Shown here: in pieces, positions 12,223 to 20,249 of the stretch
Position numbering within the stretch: the stretch's first letter is position 1
Layout of the letters: each line of letters begins with the position of its first letter
Notes under the pieces: generated by a model
Seen by the model: only the letters and a program-made list of their open reading frames with translations
Told to the model about the DNA's origin: nothing
The model's database searches: none
Translations under genes and position numbers: made by a program
Assembly: GCF_001261715.1 (NCBI RefSeq)
Contig: NZ_CVRU01000073.1
Coordinates: 1-43,344 of the forward strand
Length of the DNA stretch: 43,344 nucleotides
Source: Dysgonomonas sp. HGC4
GTDB lineage: Bacteria > Bacteroidota > Bacteroidia > Bacteroidales > Dysgonomonadaceae
Direction: 5' to 3'

Positions 12223-13122
12223 ATGGAACAGAATACAAAACCTTCGACAAGAAATACAAAGATATTAATTGCCATCATAGTGGGTTTAATTGTAGGAATG
12301 GGAGTTGCAGCATATTTTATATTCAAACAAAATACTCAGCTTGAAGAAATGCAACAAGTCAATGAAATCTCTAAACAAAAACTTGAAGATGAATACGAGA
12401 GCATTGACACTCAATATGAAGGATTCAAAATTTCTATAAAAAACGATTCTCTTTTCCAACAACTAAGCAATGAGCAAGCCAAGGTTCAACGATTGAGGGA
12501 AGAGCTTCGTACAGTAAAAGCTACTGATAAAGCTGAAATAGGTAGGTTGAATAACGAACTTAGCAGCTTAAGAAAAATTCTTAAGTCATATATTGTACAA
12601 ATAGACTCTTTAAACAGAGCTAACGAGAGACTAGTACAACAGAATAAAGAAATAACGAACAAGTATCAAGAAACGAGCAAAACTCTAAATAAGGTTTCAC
12701 AAGAAAGAGCTAACCTTACCGAAAAAGTAACACGGGCAGCCAAGCTTGACGCAACAGGCATAAGCGTAGCAGCAACCAACTCAAAAGGTAAAGTACAAAA
12801 GAAGATAAAGAGTGTAGAGCAACTAGTTGTCTCATTCACTATCACTAAGAACATTACAGCTGAACCGGGCGAAAGAACTATATATGTTCGAATAATGAAA
12901 CCCGATGACGATATTCTTGTAAAAAACAGAGCCAATACCTTTCCTTTTGAAAACAGAGAAATTCAGTACTCTATCAAAAGAGTTATCGAATATGGAGGCG
13001 AAGAAGTACCCGTTACTTTATATTGGAAAGTAGAAGAGTATTTAATGCCTGGAACTTATCGAGTAGATTTGTTTGCTGATGGTAGCCTGATAGGTTCACG
13101 ATCGTTTTCTCTTGAAAAATAA
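12223..13122 (+). CDS. Membrane-anchored periplasmic coiled-coil protein, unknown function
   Basis: I do not recognise a named family. The 299-residue protein has a short basic cytoplasmic start, one membrane segment (about residues 14-34, LIAIIVGLIVGMGVAAYFIF) and a long charged coiled coil (about 38-180, with repeated leucine/asparagine heptads). A C-terminal beta-rich domain (about 195-299) contains EPGERTIYVRIMKPDDD and ends in LIGSRSFSL. The orientation predicts that the coil and beta domain lie in the periplasm. It is followed after 39 bp by the ATPase gene on the same strand, with no terminator between, so all three genes to 15090 may be one transcript. It may be a core Bacteroidales envelope gene beside which the ATPase pair happens to sit. 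Confidence 0.75.
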   Translation: MEQNTKPSTRNTKILIAIIVGLIVGMGVAAYFIFKQNTQLEEMQQVNEISKQKLEDEYESIDTQYEGFKISIKNDSLFQQLSNEQAKVQRLREELRTVKATDKAEIGRLNNELSSLRKILKSYIVQIDSLNRANERLVQQNKEITNKYQETSKTLNKVSQERANLTEKVTRAAKLDATGISVAATNSKGKVQKKIKSVEQLVVSFTITKNITAEPGERTIYVRIMKPDDDILVKNRANTFPFENREIQYSIKRVIEYGGEEVPVTLYWKVEEYLMPGTYRVDLFADGSLIGSRSFSLEK

Positions 13123-13161: not shown

Positions 13162-14322
13162 ATGATATTAGAATTTTTCAAATATATTAGAGAAGAAGCC
13201 AAACCTAATCAATGGGGCATTGAGGGGAAAGACGGCGATTTGGTGAGATTCGACAATATCAACCTTTTCGTTGGAAAAAATGCTGTAGGAAAAAGCAGGA
13301 CACTATCCGCCCTATGCGAAATAGCAACCTTATTATCTCTAAAAAAACCGGTTTCTGATCTCAAGTTTAAAGATTCCAAATATCACCTTATACTAAAAGA
13401 AGATAACATTACTTACGAATATACTATATCAATAGAAAATCGACTAATTACTGAAGAAATTCTACGAGTAAAGGGTGTCGAAAAATACAACCGAACAAAA
13501 AATATAATCTATTCACAAACTTCTCACAAGTTTGACACATTAGATATTGCTGCCACAGAACCTATTACTTCCATTCAAGATAAAGATGATGAGTATCCTT
13601 ATATACCTGAAATATTCGAATGGAGTAATGCTTTGAAGAATTATGCATTTACAAATCAGTATGAGAAGAACCATCTCATTAAAGATAAAGAGGATCTGGA
13701 AAGCTCCAAGATAATAGACGACTTTTCTCCAGATAATGTCATCAAACTTTTTTTCAAAGGCAAAAATCGCTTTGGACAGTCTTTTACAGATACTATTATT
13801 TCGGATCTGCACGATATAGGTTATGATGTTACCAACATCGATCTACTAAAGAACAAACTAGGAATAGGTATATCCGTACAAGAGGAAGAACTATCCGAAC
13901 CGACCCTTCAACTAGACATGTCTCAAGGGATGTTCAGAGCATTATCTTTTCTTATACAGATGGAGTTTGCTTTACTAAGCAAAATATCGGTATGCCTTCT
14001 TATTGATGATTTAGGAGAAGGCTTGGATTATGCCCGATCGAAGTCCCTTATTGATATTTTGATCTATAAAGTCAACAATTCAGATATACAGATATTTATA
14101 ACTTCGAATGACCGCTATATAATGAATAAGATACCTTTAAGGTATTGGTCCGTAATAGAGCGAAAACAGAATATTTCGGTTTTTCACAACTATCATAATG
14201 CGAGAGAAATATTTGACGATTTTAAATACACAGGATTAAATAACTTTGATTTTTTAGCCACAGATTTTTATCTTCAAGGATTCAAAGACGAACAAGAGGA
14301 AGAGAAAGAAGAGGAAGAATAA
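13162..14322 (+). CDS. ABC/AAA15-type ATPase, partner of a TOPRIM protein
   Basis: This 386-residue SMC/OLD-like ATPase has no membrane domain. Walker A is GKNAVGKS (38-45). The signature-like helix is SQGMFRAL (254-261). Walker B and the following D-loop are CLLIDDLGEGLD (278-289). The usual switch histidine position reads ITSNDR (313-317), Asn/Asp in place of His. A helical insert separates the two halves (about 130-240), and the last residues are almost all glutamate. The next gene starts 9 bp later and encodes a TOPRIM-like DUF4276 protein. Such ATPase plus TOPRIM pairs resemble OLD, RloAB and PARIS-type conflict systems, in which the ATPase senses phage and releases or activates the nuclease. 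That role is inferred, not shown. Confidence 0.85.
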   Translation: MILEFFKYIREEAKPNQWGIEGKDGDLVRFDNINLFVGKNAVGKSRTLSALCEIATLLSLKKPVSDLKFKDSKYHLILKEDNITYEYTISIENRLITEEILRVKGVEKYNRTKNIIYSQTSHKFDTLDIAATEPITSIQDKDDEYPYIPEIFEWSNALKNYAFTNQYEKNHLIKDKEDLESSKIIDDFSPDNVIKLFFKGKNRFGQSFTDTIISDLHDIGYDVTNIDLLKNKLGIGISVQEEELSEPTLQLDMSQGMFRALSFLIQMEFALLSKISVCLLIDDLGEGLDYARSKSLIDILIYKVNNSDIQIFITSNDRYIMNKIPLRYWSVIERKQNISVFHNYHNAREIFDDFKYTGLNNFDFLATDFYLQGFKDEQEEEKEEEE

Positions 14323-14331
14323 AGCCGATAT

Positions 14332-15090
14332 ATGAAAAAGATTGCATTTTTTGTTGAAGGACAAACCGAGCAGGTCTTTATCAATAGGCTTGTAAAGGAG
14401 ATTATTGGCTATGGAAACCTTACAGTTCTGCTAAAAAAAATATCGGGAGGAACGAATGCCCCGAAACGCGAATTTGTAAGAAATTACAGCATCTCCCTAA
14501 AATCAGAATACACTGCACTCATCTACGATTGTGGATCGGACAACCGTGTAAAATCAGAAATACTAGACAATATAAATAGCTTACGAGAGGCAGGTTACAC
14601 ATGCGTAGTCGGCTTAAGAGATTTATATCCATTATCTATAGAAGAATTACCCCGCCTCGAACAAGGATTAAAATTTCTACCCTACCCTCTTAAGAAAAAA
14701 GATTGTCCTTTTGATATTGTGGTTGCAGTAAGAGAGGTCGAAACTTGGTTTCTAGCAGAAAGCAGCCATTTTTTGAAAGTAGATAGAAAACTTACAGGAC
14801 GATTTATCGAAAAACATCTAGGATTCAATCCAGATACGGTAAACCCCATTTCTAGAGAACACCCATCGGAAGACATAAACAAGATATATAAATTGATAGG
14901 AAGATCCTACACCAAGAAATATTGGCAAGTAGAGAAATTGGTCAATCGACTCGATTTTAATAAAATAATAAAAGATATAAGATTCAGAACTCCTTCCTTA
15001 AATGAATTGATCCAGACCATAGAACAGTTTAAAAATGGAGAGTTACAAGAATCAGTCATTCTAAGAAAAGAAAAAAGCAGCTTGAAATAA
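14332..15090 (+). CDS. DUF4276-like TOPRIM protein, putative nuclease
   Basis: The 252-residue protein starts with FFVEGQTEQVFI, the glutamate motif of TOPRIM nucleases (Glu9). It then shows acidic clusters at YDCGSD (Asp66, Asp70) and GLRDLYP (Asp97). The family signature VREVETWFLAES (133-143) is typical of DUF4276. The metal-binding acids fit a nuclease, though the substrate (DNA or RNA, for instance tRNA as in PARIS) cannot be told. It is tightly coupled to the ATPase gene (9-bp gap), so the two are almost certainly made and used together. Its stop codon sits in the loop of the terminator at 15073-15104. It could also be an inactive TOPRIM scaffold. Confidence 0.8.
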   Translation: MKKIAFFVEGQTEQVFINRLVKEIIGYGNLTVLLKKISGGTNAPKREFVRNYSISLKSEYTALIYDCGSDNRVKSEILDNINSLREAGYTCVVGLRDLYPLSIEELPRLEQGLKFLPYPLKKKDCPFDIVVAVREVETWFLAESSHFLKVDRKLTGRFIEKHLGFNPDTVNPISREHPSEDINKIYKLIGRSYTKKYWQVEKLVNRLDFNKIIKDIRFRTPSLNELIQTIEQFKNGELQESVILRKEKSSLK

Positions 15091-15104
15091 ATCAAACTGC
15101 TTTT
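15073..15104. terminator. bidirectional terminator shared by the TOPRIM gene and rpmA
   Basis: AAAAGCAG and TTGA pair with TCAA and CTGCTTTT across one mismatch, with a six-base loop. The stop codon of the plus-strand TOPRIM gene lies in the loop. The tail is T-rich on both strands, so it also ends rplU-rpmA. Confidence 0.85.
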
Positions 15105-15125
15105 CTTATTTTAAAGAATCTGCTA

Positions 15126-16319: not shown

Positions 16320-17246
16320 ATGAACAAAAGATTTTTACAATTTCTATTAATCGCAATCACAACTGGAATCATTTTTTCGAGCTGTTCAAAAGATGAAGAA
16401 TTAACAGGAACTGAATCTAATGAGCAAACTCAAATCCGTCTAACAAGTGCTATAAATCAATTAGCTACTCGTTCGACAGCCCAAAACACTCAAATTGAAT
16501 CTGGTCAAGAAGTAGGTTTAGTAGTTGCTAACAACCCCTTCACTGCTGTATTATATGATAATATTAAACTTACAGCTGATGGTAGTGGAGGTTTCACTTA
16601 TCCTTCTTCAATGTATTATCCTACTGATGGAGGAAAAGTTGATTTAATGGCTTATCACCCTTACAATGAATCTGTAACAGGTATTGGTTCTGCTTATACA
16701 TTTGGTATTCAAGCTGATCAAACGTTAAAAGCTAATTACTTAAACTCAGACGTTCTTTTCGGATCTGTTGAACATGTTTCAAGAACAACTAGCGCAGTGC
16801 CTATTGAATTTAATCACTTATTCTCGAAACTTACATTTACTGTTAAAAAAGGAAATGGTGCAAGTTTAGAAGGATTAAGCTCTATTGAGGTGCTAGGATT
16901 AAGCAACGAAGCATTAGTCGACTTTGAAAAAAGAAGCGTTACAGCTGATGGTACCGCAACAACTATTAATGCATATAATGTACCAACTGGAACCGCAAGC
17001 GACCTCCAATTAACAGGTGCAGCTGCAATTGTAGTACCACAAACTGTGAAAGCAGGACAAACTCTACTAAGAGTTACAATTGGCGATGTTGTATATCTAT
17101 ACGCTCCAACAGCAGCACTAGAACTAGCAATGGGAACCGCTTATAACTACACCATTACAGTAAATATGGCTGGAATTACAGTTACATCTAGTATTGTAGA
17201 TTGGCAAAATGGTGGCAACATAGACGGAGAAGGAGAAATAGCTTAA
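16320..17246 (+). CDS. Fimbrillin-family lipoprotein, probable main subunit
   Basis: The 308-residue protein is a Mfa-like/FimA-type fimbrillin. The lipoprotein signal ends in IIFSSC (Cys22), followed by SKDEE, which resembles the acidic lipoprotein export signal of Bacteroidetes and predicts the cell surface. Arg51 in LATRST lies where type V pilins are cut by an Arg-specific protease before donor-strand assembly. The body has the fimbrillin pattern (YPTDGGKVDLMAYHPYN, FNHLFSKLTFTV) and the typical end AYNYTITVNMAGITVTSS...DWQNGG. It is first in the operon and is followed by a strong terminator, which suggests it is made in excess, as expected of the shaft subunit. Alternatively it could be an anchor or accessory pilin. 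Confidence 0.85.
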   Translation: MNKRFLQFLLIAITTGIIFSSCSKDEELTGTESNEQTQIRLTSAINQLATRSTAQNTQIESGQEVGLVVANNPFTAVLYDNIKLTADGSGGFTYPSSMYYPTDGGKVDLMAYHPYNESVTGIGSAYTFGIQADQTLKANYLNSDVLFGSVEHVSRTTSAVPIEFNHLFSKLTFTVKKGNGASLEGLSSIEVLGLSNEALVDFEKRSVTADGTATTINAYNVPTGTASDLQLTGAAAIVVPQTVKAGQTLLRVTIGDVVYLYAPTAALELAMGTAYNYTITVNMAGITVTSSIVDWQNGGNIDGEGEIA

Positions 17247-17269
17247 AATATACTGAATAAGAAAATAAT

Positions 17270-17306
17270 AAAAAGGATATGGCAAATCTAGAACCATATC
17301 CTTTTT
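17270..17306 (+). terminator. internal terminator after the first fimbrillin gene
   Basis: AAAAAGGATATGG pairs with CCATATCCTTTTT (13 bp, 11-base loop), ending in T's. It lies between the first and second fimbrial genes, 24 bp before the second start. Confidence 0.9.
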
Positions 17307-17330
17307 ATCAACAATTGTATTTATCAGATT

Positions 17331-18263
17331 ATGACAAAAAAACTCTACATATTATTAATAACAAGCATTTGCTTAATCTTTACATCATGCCTTAGTGATA
17401 GTGAATGCGGGAACAATGATACACTCAGAGTAAGTATTGTTGCAGATATTGCAAGCTCTAAATTGAAAACACGATCTTCAAAATCTGGATTTTCTGAAAA
17501 TGACAATATCGGATTATATATGGTTGATTACGTAAATGGTATTCCCATGCCTGTTGGAACTATATCCAACTTCATGAATACTGAATATGTTTATGACGGA
17601 ACTTATTGGAACAGTAAAGATACTGAAGAATTATATCTTACAACCGATCAAACCAAAGCTGATATATATGCATACTACCCATTTGATTATGAAATGAGCA
17701 GAACACCTGGAAAAGCAGATCTCAGATCCTACCCTTTCAGTGTGGAAAGCGACCAAAGCTTATCTTCTCAAAAGAGTGATTTCTTATGGGCTAAGTATAG
17801 TGAATTATCTAGTGCAAACACAATAGCAAAACTTACATTTAAACATATACTCTCTAAAATTGTCCTCAACGTAACGTATGGTAATTTAGGGAATGGTAAC
17901 GAATCTGTTACAATTCATAACCTAACTCAGAATGCCCTGATCAATATGCGAACTGCAGATGTGTCTGAAGTAAAGCTCAACTCCAATAATGAGATTAAAC
18001 CATATCTTCAAGATATTGCAAATGCAGGATTTGATAAAACATTTAGTGCAATCATTATTCCCCAATCTGTAGAAACTGGCACATCATTGTTTGCAATAAC
18101 TTTAAATGACCAGATGTTTGCTTTCACCCTCGATAGTCCTATTAGTTTTGAGTCAGGTCTCTCTTATACTTTCAATTTAGTTATTGGAGAGGCAAATACA
18201 AGAAGCATTCAAAACACTAACATAGAACGAAAAATTTCATTAGTAGATAAGAGTTCTTTCTAA
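17331..18263 (+). CDS. Fimbrillin-family lipoprotein, accessory subunit
   Basis: This 310-residue Mfa-like fimbrillin has a lipoprotein signal ending in LIFTSC (Cys20). A putative Arg cleavage site stands at Arg48 (LKTRSS), followed by the usual ENDNIGLYM strand. The pattern ADIYAYYPFD, SDFLWAKYSEL and KLTFKHILSKIVLNV is shared with the next gene, so the two are closer to each other than to the first. The last about 20 residues (RKISLVDKSSF) lack the DW motif of its neighbours. It sits downstream of a terminator and should be made at a lower level, which fits a minor pilus component. Its exact place in the pilus is unknown. Confidence 0.82.
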   Translation: MTKKLYILLITSICLIFTSCLSDSECGNNDTLRVSIVADIASSKLKTRSSKSGFSENDNIGLYMVDYVNGIPMPVGTISNFMNTEYVYDGTYWNSKDTEELYLTTDQTKADIYAYYPFDYEMSRTPGKADLRSYPFSVESDQSLSSQKSDFLWAKYSELSSANTIAKLTFKHILSKIVLNVTYGNLGNGNESVTIHNLTQNALINMRTADVSEVKLNSNNEIKPYLQDIANAGFDKTFSAIIIPQSVETGTSLFAITLNDQMFAFTLDSPISFESGLSYTFNLVIGEANTRSIQNTNIERKISLVDKSSF

Positions 18264-18305
18264 TTTGATGAAAGAAAATTTGTTACACGATATATAATAA
18301 CTTAT

Positions 18306-20249
18306 ATGAAAAGTTTACTAACTAAAACAATGTCACTACTTACTATTATGTTTGGTATTTTCACAATACTAAATATGACCTCGTGTGACAATATAAGTGA
18401 CACCATAGATCTAGAAGAAGCTACCGAAAACACCATAACTTTATCACCCTACATAAATGAAGGGCTTACAACCAGAATGGCTGGATCTTCATTTCAGGAG
18501 AATGATGAGATTGGAGTATATGCTGTGGCCCATTTAAGCGACAATCAAATAACAGGAGATATACAAGATAGTTATGCTCCTAATATCAAACATATATATA
18601 ATGGCACTACTTGGGCATTGCCTCAAGGAGCACATTTCCCTTGGGCTGGCGGTCAAACAAAAGTAGAGCTATATGCCTATTACCCATACAACCAAGCTGC
18701 GACAACCTCCAATGCGAAAAGTTATCCATTCTCGATAAAATTAGACCAAAGTACCTCAGAGTCTTATATGACAAGCGATTTCTTATGGGCGAAGTCAGAA
18801 GCTACTAGTCCTACAAAAAGTAAAATTCCTTTGTCTTTTACTCACCAAATGAGTAAGGTTATTATCAATATCAAATCAGAAAGAGATTTTACAGAAGAAG
18901 AGGTTCAAAACTTTAGTGCTAACTTTCTTAATTTGCACCTAGATGCAAAGGTTGACTTATCGTCAGGTACAGTATCAACAGCATCGGGCTCTCAAGCTAA
19001 GAATCTGATCCCACGCAAACGAAATAATCCGATAACCGGCTATGGCATCACATTTGAGGCTATAGTTCTTCCGCAAACAATTGCAGCTTCAGCAGAATTA
19101 TTTGCGATAAGATCGGCTGAAGGCGCAACCCCATATACCTATAAATCAGCTAACGAGCTAATATTTAGTTCTCAAAAACAATACACATTTAATATAACAA
19201 TTTCAAGAACAGGTATTTCGATAACTACTGATGATATACAAGATTGGACAACAACACCCGATATTGAAGGAAACATCAACAAGCCCGTAAAAAAAGCAAT
19301 AGATATATCTAACATTAATTGGAATATTACCAGAGTATACAAGGTGATGGATAAAGGGATTCAAATTGCTGAAGTAAGCAAAGAGTACTTACTTAGCGGA
19401 ACAGCAATAGATGTACAAGCAATTGTTGTATATCCAATGGATGCAAACTCTAACGCCGATCAGACTAGAGGGTTTGTTGCACAAATAATGCAAACAACAT
19501 TAAACGGAAATAACGAATACGATCCTAATACTGCAATAACAACCCATGGAGGCAGTGTTAGCTGGCACAAACCAACCAACCTGATGGCTTACACAGCAGG
19601 CAAGAGTAATATCATCAACAAAGTACAAATTGATAAAAGTGATGTTTCTGCAGCTGGTGCAGATGCCATATACTCGTTGACTTTAGAACCTGATATGGTC
19701 ACTGATATTGACAAAAACAGCTATGGTGTTGTAAAAATAGGCACTCAATATTGGATGCGTGAAAATCTGAAAGTAGAACATTATAGAGATGGATCTGCTG
19801 CCGAAACCTATTATTTCAACAACAGCATTGCCAATAAAGATTTACTTGGAGGACTTTATACTTGGAATACTGTAAGCAACACCAGCAACTTGGCTCCTAA
19901 AGGATGGCATATCCCAACTCATGATGAATTTAAAGCCCTGTCAATTTATACATCAGGAACTGCTACAGCACCTTATTATAATGCAGGTAAGAAGCTGAAA
20001 GCAGTAAGAATGTGGAGCACCACAGTCAATAATAGCAACATTACTGGGTTTGAAGCCTTACCAGGAGGTAGAAGACTTGATAATGGTAGTTTCAACGAAA
20101 TAAACCTTTATGGTCAATGGTGGAGTACTACTGAATATAATGCAGCTTATGGAAAAAGAGTTTATATAGATTATGGTAACACTGGAGTCTGGGTAGAAGC
20201 GAACCTTCTTAAGACATATGCCGAATCGGTTAGATGTATTAGAAATTAA
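18306..20249 (+). CDS. Fimbrillin-FISUMP fusion lipoprotein, putative tip adhesin
   Basis: The 647-residue protein has a lipoprotein signal ending in NMTSC (Cys27), a putative processing Arg57 (LTTRMAG) and a Mfa-like fimbrillin domain (about 45-320, with ENDEIGVYAV, VELYAYYPYN and ITRTGIS-like strands ending in DW). A linker domain (about 325-465) leads to a C-terminal FISUMP domain (about 470-647, with IGTQYWMRENLKV, PKGWHIPTHDEFKAL, GFEALPGGRR and ESVRCIRN). FISUMP domains resemble C-type lectin-like folds and are common on surface proteins of fibre-associated Bacteroidetes and Fibrobacteres. As the last and largest subunit it is a natural candidate for the pilus tip that binds a ligand. 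No tip function is proven. Confidence 0.85.
   Translation: MKSLLTKTMSLLTIMFGIFTILNMTSCDNISDTIDLEEATENTITLSPYINEGLTTRMAGSSFQENDEIGVYAVAHLSDNQITGDIQDSYAPNIKHIYNGTTWALPQGAHFPWAGGQTKVELYAYYPYNQAATTSNAKSYPFSIKLDQSTSESYMTSDFLWAKSEATSPTKSKIPLSFTHQMSKVIINIKSERDFTEEEVQNFSANFLNLHLDAKVDLSSGTVSTASGSQAKNLIPRKRNNPITGYGITFEAIVLPQTIAASAELFAIRSAEGATPYTYKSANELIFSSQKQYTFNITISRTGISITTDDIQDWTTTPDIEGNINKPVKKAIDISNINWNITRVYKVMDKGIQIAEVSKEYLLSGTAIDVQAIVVYPMDANSNADQTRGFVAQIMQTTLNGNNEYDPNTAITTHGGSVSWHKPTNLMAYTAGKSNIINKVQIDKSDVSAAGADAIYSLTLEPDMVTDIDKNSYGVVKIGTQYWMRENLKVEHYRDGSAAETYYFNNSIANKDLLGGLYTWNTVSNTSNLAPKGWHIPTHDEFKALSIYTSGTATAPYYNAGKKLKAVRMWSTTVNNSNITGFEALPGGRRLDNGSFNEINLYGQWWSTTEYNAAYGKRVYIDYGNTGVWVEANLLKTYAESVRCIRN

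Follow-up and report, generated by a model that had tools for sequence, protein, structure and literature searches.

An OLD-like ATPase and a DUF4276 Toprim protein form a near-fixed gene pair of probable phage-conflict origin in one clade of Dysgonomonadaceae

Two adjacent genes of Dysgonomonas sp. HGC4, located in a 43,344-nucleotide stretch (contig NZ_CVRU01000073.1, positions 1 to 43,344; the whole stretch is called the window below), encode an ABC-type ATPase and a DUF4276-type Toprim protein. We propose, with a probability of roughly 0.55, that they are a split OLD-like sensor/nuclease of phage-conflict origin that has been retained as a core gene pair. The form of the pair, its active site and its mobile relatives suggest a sensor-nuclease of the OLD, AbiL and PARIS kind, and its near-fixation and largely vertical inheritance in one clade of the family Dysgonomonadaceae point to a standing job. 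Pairs of this kind are frequently found on phages and other mobile DNA, and defence systems are usually regarded as patchy and quickly exchanged; a pair that most of a lineage keeps under purifying selection would either correspond, in bacteria, to core innate immunity or be a defence enzyme recruited for housekeeping. The two genes are:

13162–14322, + strand: OLD/AAA_21-type ABC ATPase, 386 amino acids, putative sensor/regulator
14332–15090, + strand: DUF4276-type Toprim protein, 252 amino acids, putative nuclease effector

Both open reading frames (ORFs) lie on the + strand, 9 bases apart, as a sequence-only reading of this DNA had already placed them. Among the loci that match either protein, 130 of 132 carry both (several loci being repeats of one place), and in the two exceptions, L065 and L096, the Toprim match sits at the start of the locus. 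Co-occurrence of the two genes is far beyond chance. Stop and start codons overlap in 27 of 39 distinct pairs (by 4 bases in 11 and by 1 base in 16), and in every one of the 39 the two genes are within 18 bases of each other; this set excludes the IMG/VR pairs, and the start codon nearest to that of the window protein was chosen. The window's own pair is non-overlapping, unlike these 27. Such closely spaced genes are probably made from one message.

Distribution of the pair

The Toprim gene was found in 31 of the 101 genomes of the window's family, at one place in each (in G015 as two contig-end pieces). The carriers are confined to five of the 15 genera (g1, 5/6; g3, 23/25; g10, 1/1; g11, 1/1; g13, 1/3), that is, to 31 of 36 genomes of what we call the clade; the remaining ten genera have no carrier among 65 genomes. 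When only good genomes are counted (completeness of 90% or more, contamination of 5% or less), the pair is present in 24 of the 26 from the five genera. The two near-complete clade genomes without it are G028 and G094; in the latter, a g13 member, the locus that holds the pair in the window (mdh-coil299, see below) is present and the pair absent. Among the controls, coil299 is encoded by 93 of the 101 family genomes, with or without the pair, HsdM_N by 62 over 14 genera (24 of the 36 clade genomes) and RloB by 16 over seven genera (6 of the 36). Further DUF4276 proteins occur here and there in the family, for example in G006, G019, G034 and G041.

An order-wide profile search retrieved 15 of 393 genomes at E 1e-10, five of them from the window's clade, five from a second Bacteroidales family, f8, and five from elsewhere, and a phylum-wide search with a cut-off of E 1e-20 retrieved 3 of 395, one of them being the genome of the window. 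The patchy presence expected of a mobile module was not seen inside the clade but is found outside the two lineages, where the pair is rare and looks mobile.

Locus, inheritance and selection

The 5' side of the pair in the window is made up of mdh (- strand; Ldh_1 domains by Pfam) and a core gene that we call coil299:

12223–13122, + strand: core gene coil299, 299 amino acids, with a hydrophobic start and a coiled coil by eye

The pair lies directly 3' of mdh-coil299 in all eight carriers of g1, g10, g11 and g13, whereas the gene that follows it varies (rpmA-rplU in g1, different ones in g10, g11 and g13). It was found at none of the 22 coil299 loci read in g3, in 19 of which a GNAT acetyltransferase-like gene follows coil299; the surroundings of the pair were read in 17 of the 23 g3 carriers, and in each of these it sits elsewhere, at one of several kinds of place. 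A complex of the pair with coil299 was considered and rejected, as coil299 occurs in the family regardless of the pair and stands apart from it in g3; adjoining the pair in g1, g10, g11 and g13 alone, it is a neighbour and not a component.

Intact pair sequences were extracted from 27 of the 31 carriers, and 25 of these were compared with core genes (G018 and G019 lacked core sequence and were left out). The distances of the pair track those of mdh plus coil299, with a Mantel r of 0.87 and 0 of 2000 permutations as high. The pair and core trees agree on g1, with an identical inner order, and on g3 as well-supported groups. They conflict in the order of G089/G090/G095, in G016/G020, and in G005/G017 with G008/G013; in the first and third of these conflicts, the pair tree has good support for its own grouping. 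Three genome comparisons have a dS of at most 1.0, and there dN/dS (NG86) is 0.033–0.079 for the pair and 0.014–0.052 for coil299 and mdh; many other dS values were saturated or failed. Mean amino-acid distances are 0.48 for the ATPase, 0.36 for the Toprim protein, 0.25 for coil299 and 0.09 for mdh. The pair is under purifying selection in the clade and has been inherited largely vertically.

These results bear on the claim of the sequence-only reading that the pair is a typical single-module insertion. An ordinary mobile defence module, recently inserted at the window site, would agree with the architecture, with the mobile-looking relatives described below, with a right-hand flank that differs among genera and with the several other places occupied in g3. 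However, the same core gene precedes the pair in every carrier of four genera, most clade genomes carry it and its tree tracks the core genes, so the pair is no recent insertion, and we consider this explanation very improbable. The comparison of related genomes that had been suggested recovered the same locus in g1, g10, g11 and g13 but not in g3. It had also been held that a shared locus without linkage to defence genes would speak against a defence module. This was found in part: the eight carriers share the site, and no defence gene was recognised beside the pair there, these neighbours having been read without a PADLOC scan.

A second lineage with the pair

Family f8 carries the pair in 20 of its 28 genomes (8 of 10 good ones). 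In the 13 stretches read for their surroundings, the same upstream gene, outer-membrane-type by eye, precedes the pair in all 12 with upstream DNA, two of which have a small opposite ORF in between. Of the 10 stretches that extend far enough downstream, 9 have a GyrB-like gene on that side of the pair, again named by eye, either adjacent or separated by one small gene. The window pair is about 5 kb from a gene named dnaN by eye, a likeness to the GyrB-like neighbour of f8 (L148, L149 and others) that may be chance.

An unrooted tree of 46 rows separates the clade of the window from f8, each group being supported at 100/100, and forcing them together was rejected (p-AU 7e-5, in a test done after the tree had been inspected). 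The two lineages thus apparently gained the pair by separate captures, which is the simplest reading of the sequences and not proof. The closest companions of the window's clade in the tree are Cytophagales, Flectobacillus and a cyanobacterium (98/92), a grouping that suggests exchange across phyla. We suggest, tentatively, that a phage-conflict pair was captured twice, independently, as a vertical core pair in two Bacteroidales lineages and now has a standing job. That job might be, with no greater confidence, that of a lineage-wide innate immune sensor or of a cell-cycle or DNA-maintenance nuclease like the archaeal Cran1 (see below).

The ATPase

The ATPase scores 35.1 bits against Pfam AAA_21, above the cut-off of 27, and has a Walker A motif at residues 37–44, the signature SQGMFRA at 254–260 and a Walker B motif ending at 289, so that score and motifs are all those of an AAA_21/OLD-type ABC ATPase. 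In an alignment of 32 ATPases, the window's included, the invariant residues are N40, G43 and K44 in Walker A and D282, D283, E286, G287 and D289 in Walker B; V37, G38, G285 and L288 are nearly invariant. Conservation within the clade is lower in the middle of the protein (residues 61–240) than at both ends, the last six residues set aside; block 341–360 is the best conserved, within a well conserved C-terminal block spanning about 341–372. The middle may be the sensing part, and the C-terminal block could be a dock for the Toprim protein. The ATPase frame of G029 (L010:981-2088) is broken into two tblastn pieces, the only clade copy in which this was noticed; as the assembly is 71% complete, the break may be an assembly error.

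A search of solved structures with the single sequence gave no match, and the profile reached AriA and Rad50 only at E 0.023. PADLOC models, whose scores come without cut-offs, gave 59.7 bits for AbiLi, the best, 50.1 for AriA and 22.6 for HEC-01A. PHROGs yielded one weak family of unknown function. The sole NCBIfam match was recF, at 30.5 bits against a cut-off of 172, which is far too low to call the protein RecF. This match is what a RecF-RecR-like repair pair, in place of an OLD-like one, has in its favour. A proper RecF above the cut-off is, however, encoded elsewhere in all six genomes tested, of which four have the pair and two lack it, and on this ground we rejected a repair pair as the main reading; in addition, OLD and PARIS chains are among the structural matches of the Toprim model. 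The absence of RecR from the 50 matches listed for that model excludes nothing. We consider a repair pair of this kind the least probable of the explanations weighed here.

The Toprim protein

Residues 8–231 of the 252-residue Toprim protein align to positions 1–192 of the 192-position Pfam profile DUF4276 (PF14103) at 48.5 bits, above the cut-off of 30.2. Its Toprim fold is supported by an AlphaFold2 model and the structural matches of that model, which include the OLD and PARIS chains. A two-metal site is predicted at E9, E13, D97, E135/E137 and K195, with Y99 standing where DxD would have its second aspartate; these residues were mapped by spacing and not by superposed coordinates. E9 and D97 are invariant in all 31 aligned members, and all 27 clade genomes compared have Y99 at the second DxD position. 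Among the named relatives found, Dysgonomonas alginatilytica (Indolivaga alginatilytica in the NCBI taxonomy) is the closest, its Toprim protein being 96% identical.

Single-sequence searches of solved structures gave one weak match (E 0.45), the profile gave nothing better than E 0.31 and no PHROG family was matched. HEC-01B models were the best PADLOC matches (31.5 bits), the AbiLii model reached E 0.0045, and no AriB-named model was among the 14 PADLOC matches of the protein. One full-text search of the papers available found none naming DUF4276, whose members may go under other names; if they have not been described in that way, to learn what this branch cuts would add something new.

Much of what the sequence-only reading had said about the two proteins therefore stands. 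It had called the ATPase OLD-like, which the Walker motifs and the AAA_21 score confirm, and it had named the lack of a Toprim fold as a result that would count against it, whereas the model bears the fold out. The partner is of the DUF4276 type, as had been claimed, with no AriB model among its PADLOC matches, and the likeness of the pair to OLD and PARIS-type systems, including the ATPase plus Toprim architecture, is supported and extends to AbiL.

Mobile relatives and defence linkage

Two scans of IMG/VR gave 8 and 12 loci, comprising 13 distinct pairs, one partial Toprim gene (L065) and L067. In L067:1706-3075 (IMG/VR 3300010354_015606), a six-frame profile scan found the ATPase followed by a short Toprim start only, which looks like a disrupted copy; the same kind of scan found a full Toprim gene at the G463 locus. 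An integrase lies within four genes of 6 of the 13 pairs (L060, L061, L063, L064 and L078 by Pfam, L069 through the cluster of L061), and a D12-type methyltransferase directly upstream of three (L062 and L073 by Pfam, L074 by cluster). On these counts, the role in phage conflict that had been put forward from the sequence is probable somewhere in the pair's family, although not in the form of a recent insertion.

Around 24 relatives that belong to neither lineage, 147 neighbouring genes were surveyed; in raw counts, integrase is the commonest Pfam family (6) and PHROG (7) among them. The best 25 of 66 PADLOC families reach at most three members each, the top ten being mostly methyltransferase models. 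The neighbourhood search that had been suggested thus returned integrases and methyltransferases near the relatives, but linkage to defence genes outside the two lineages is thin. Phage records gave no match to the pair. Plasmid records gave two, in Paraburkholderia and Bacteroides finegoldii. The latter (plasmid NZ_OY725969.1, L080:6935-8726) is a distant ATPase-Toprim pair with 24% identity to the window's Toprim protein, and it is embedded in a gene cluster for a capsule-type polysaccharide, where a tyrosine kinase and a sugar transporter flank it.

Comparison with known systems

OLD, Gabija, retrons, AbiL, MADS and PARIS are grouped, in an excerpt of PMC12409363, as defence systems pairing Toprim with an ABC ATPase. 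The window pair may well belong to the TOPRIM-linked OLD-ABC operons at large, collections of which, according to an excerpt of PMC12839542, predate the naming of PARIS and Gabija. With OLD proteins of class 1 and class 2 (Gabija GajA) it shares the Toprim fold and most metal-site residues, but its ATPase and Toprim protein are unfused. It also differs from Gabija in that no UvrD-like helicase follows, the next gene being rpmA on the other strand.

PARIS (AriA/AriB), proposed as class 4 OLD in PMC10568477, is approached by the ATPase through its AriA score; the effector here is DUF4276. AbiL (abiLi/abiLii) is likewise a two-gene system, phage-abortive, and its AbiLi model matches all 32 ATPases; the AbiLii model, in contrast, barely matches the window's Toprim protein. 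An excerpt of PMC3985639 reports toxicity in E. coli for the AbiLii of Fusobacterium nucleatum, none for that of L. lactis, and no antitoxicity for the Fusobacterium AbiLi. One HEC-01B model of the PADLOC candidate HEC-01 matches 29 of 31 Toprim members and one HEC-01A model 31 of 32 ATPases, but the matches of the window proteins are distant. No paper on HEC-01 as a defence system was among the literature matches listed; a search for Menshen NsnB/NsnC found none, and one for Dysgonomonas with defence and phage found nothing relevant.

Possible mechanism and standing job

The ABC-type ATPase and the DUF4276 Toprim nuclease would form a split OLD-like sensor/nuclease complex. By analogy with PARIS, an ATPase oligomer might keep the nuclease off until an infection-related cue meets the fast-evolving middle of the ATPase, upon which the nuclease would be turned on or let go. 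It would then cut nucleic acid, possibly tRNA or DNA, by two-metal chemistry, and this cutting would stop the infected cell. The fixed copies may still act against phages.

Alternatively, the pair could be a domesticated housekeeping enzyme (chromosome maintenance, RNA processing or cell-cycle control), in which the ATPase regulates nicking or RNA cutting in normal growth. Its carriage by most of the clade (31 of 36 genomes), its largely vertical tree, dN/dS values close to those of coil299 and mdh and the position of the f8 pair between an outer-membrane-type gene and a GyrB-like gene all agree with this. There is also a precedent in Cran1 of the Sulfolobales, which an excerpt of PMC12796447 describes as an OLD-family ATPase-nickase, conserved across a lineage, that acts in the cell cycle, apparently outside defence. 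However, Cran1 is archaeal and is reported there to be undeletable, whereas the absence of the window pair from near-complete G028 and G094 shows that it can be lost. Moreover, the pair diverges more than coil299 and mdh, and its relatives lie near integrases on IMG/VR contigs. The data agree with both core immunity and domesticated housekeeping; we think a housekeeping enzyme the less likely, and favour a split sensor/nuclease of phage-conflict origin.

Other features of the window

On the 3' side, the pair faces the convergent genes rpmA and rplU (named by eye), and a hairpin lies between the two units:

15071–15106, no strand: hairpin terminator common to the pair (+) and to the convergent rplU-rpmA (-), from RNA folding

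The fold has a z score of -2.81, with 3 of 200 shuffles equally good, and the terminator scan scored it on the rplU-rpmA strand. A single terminator after both genes had been read from the sequence; the hairpin is real, but, lying between convergent units and scored for the opposite one, it is common to both and not the pair's own. Promoter signal in the window was of no use (15 promoter-like sites against 14.1 expected). Finally, three consecutive related surface-protein genes occupy positions 16320–20249 (the first is Mfa_like_1 by Pfam); this run has no tblastn match in L022 or L023 and is present in L021.
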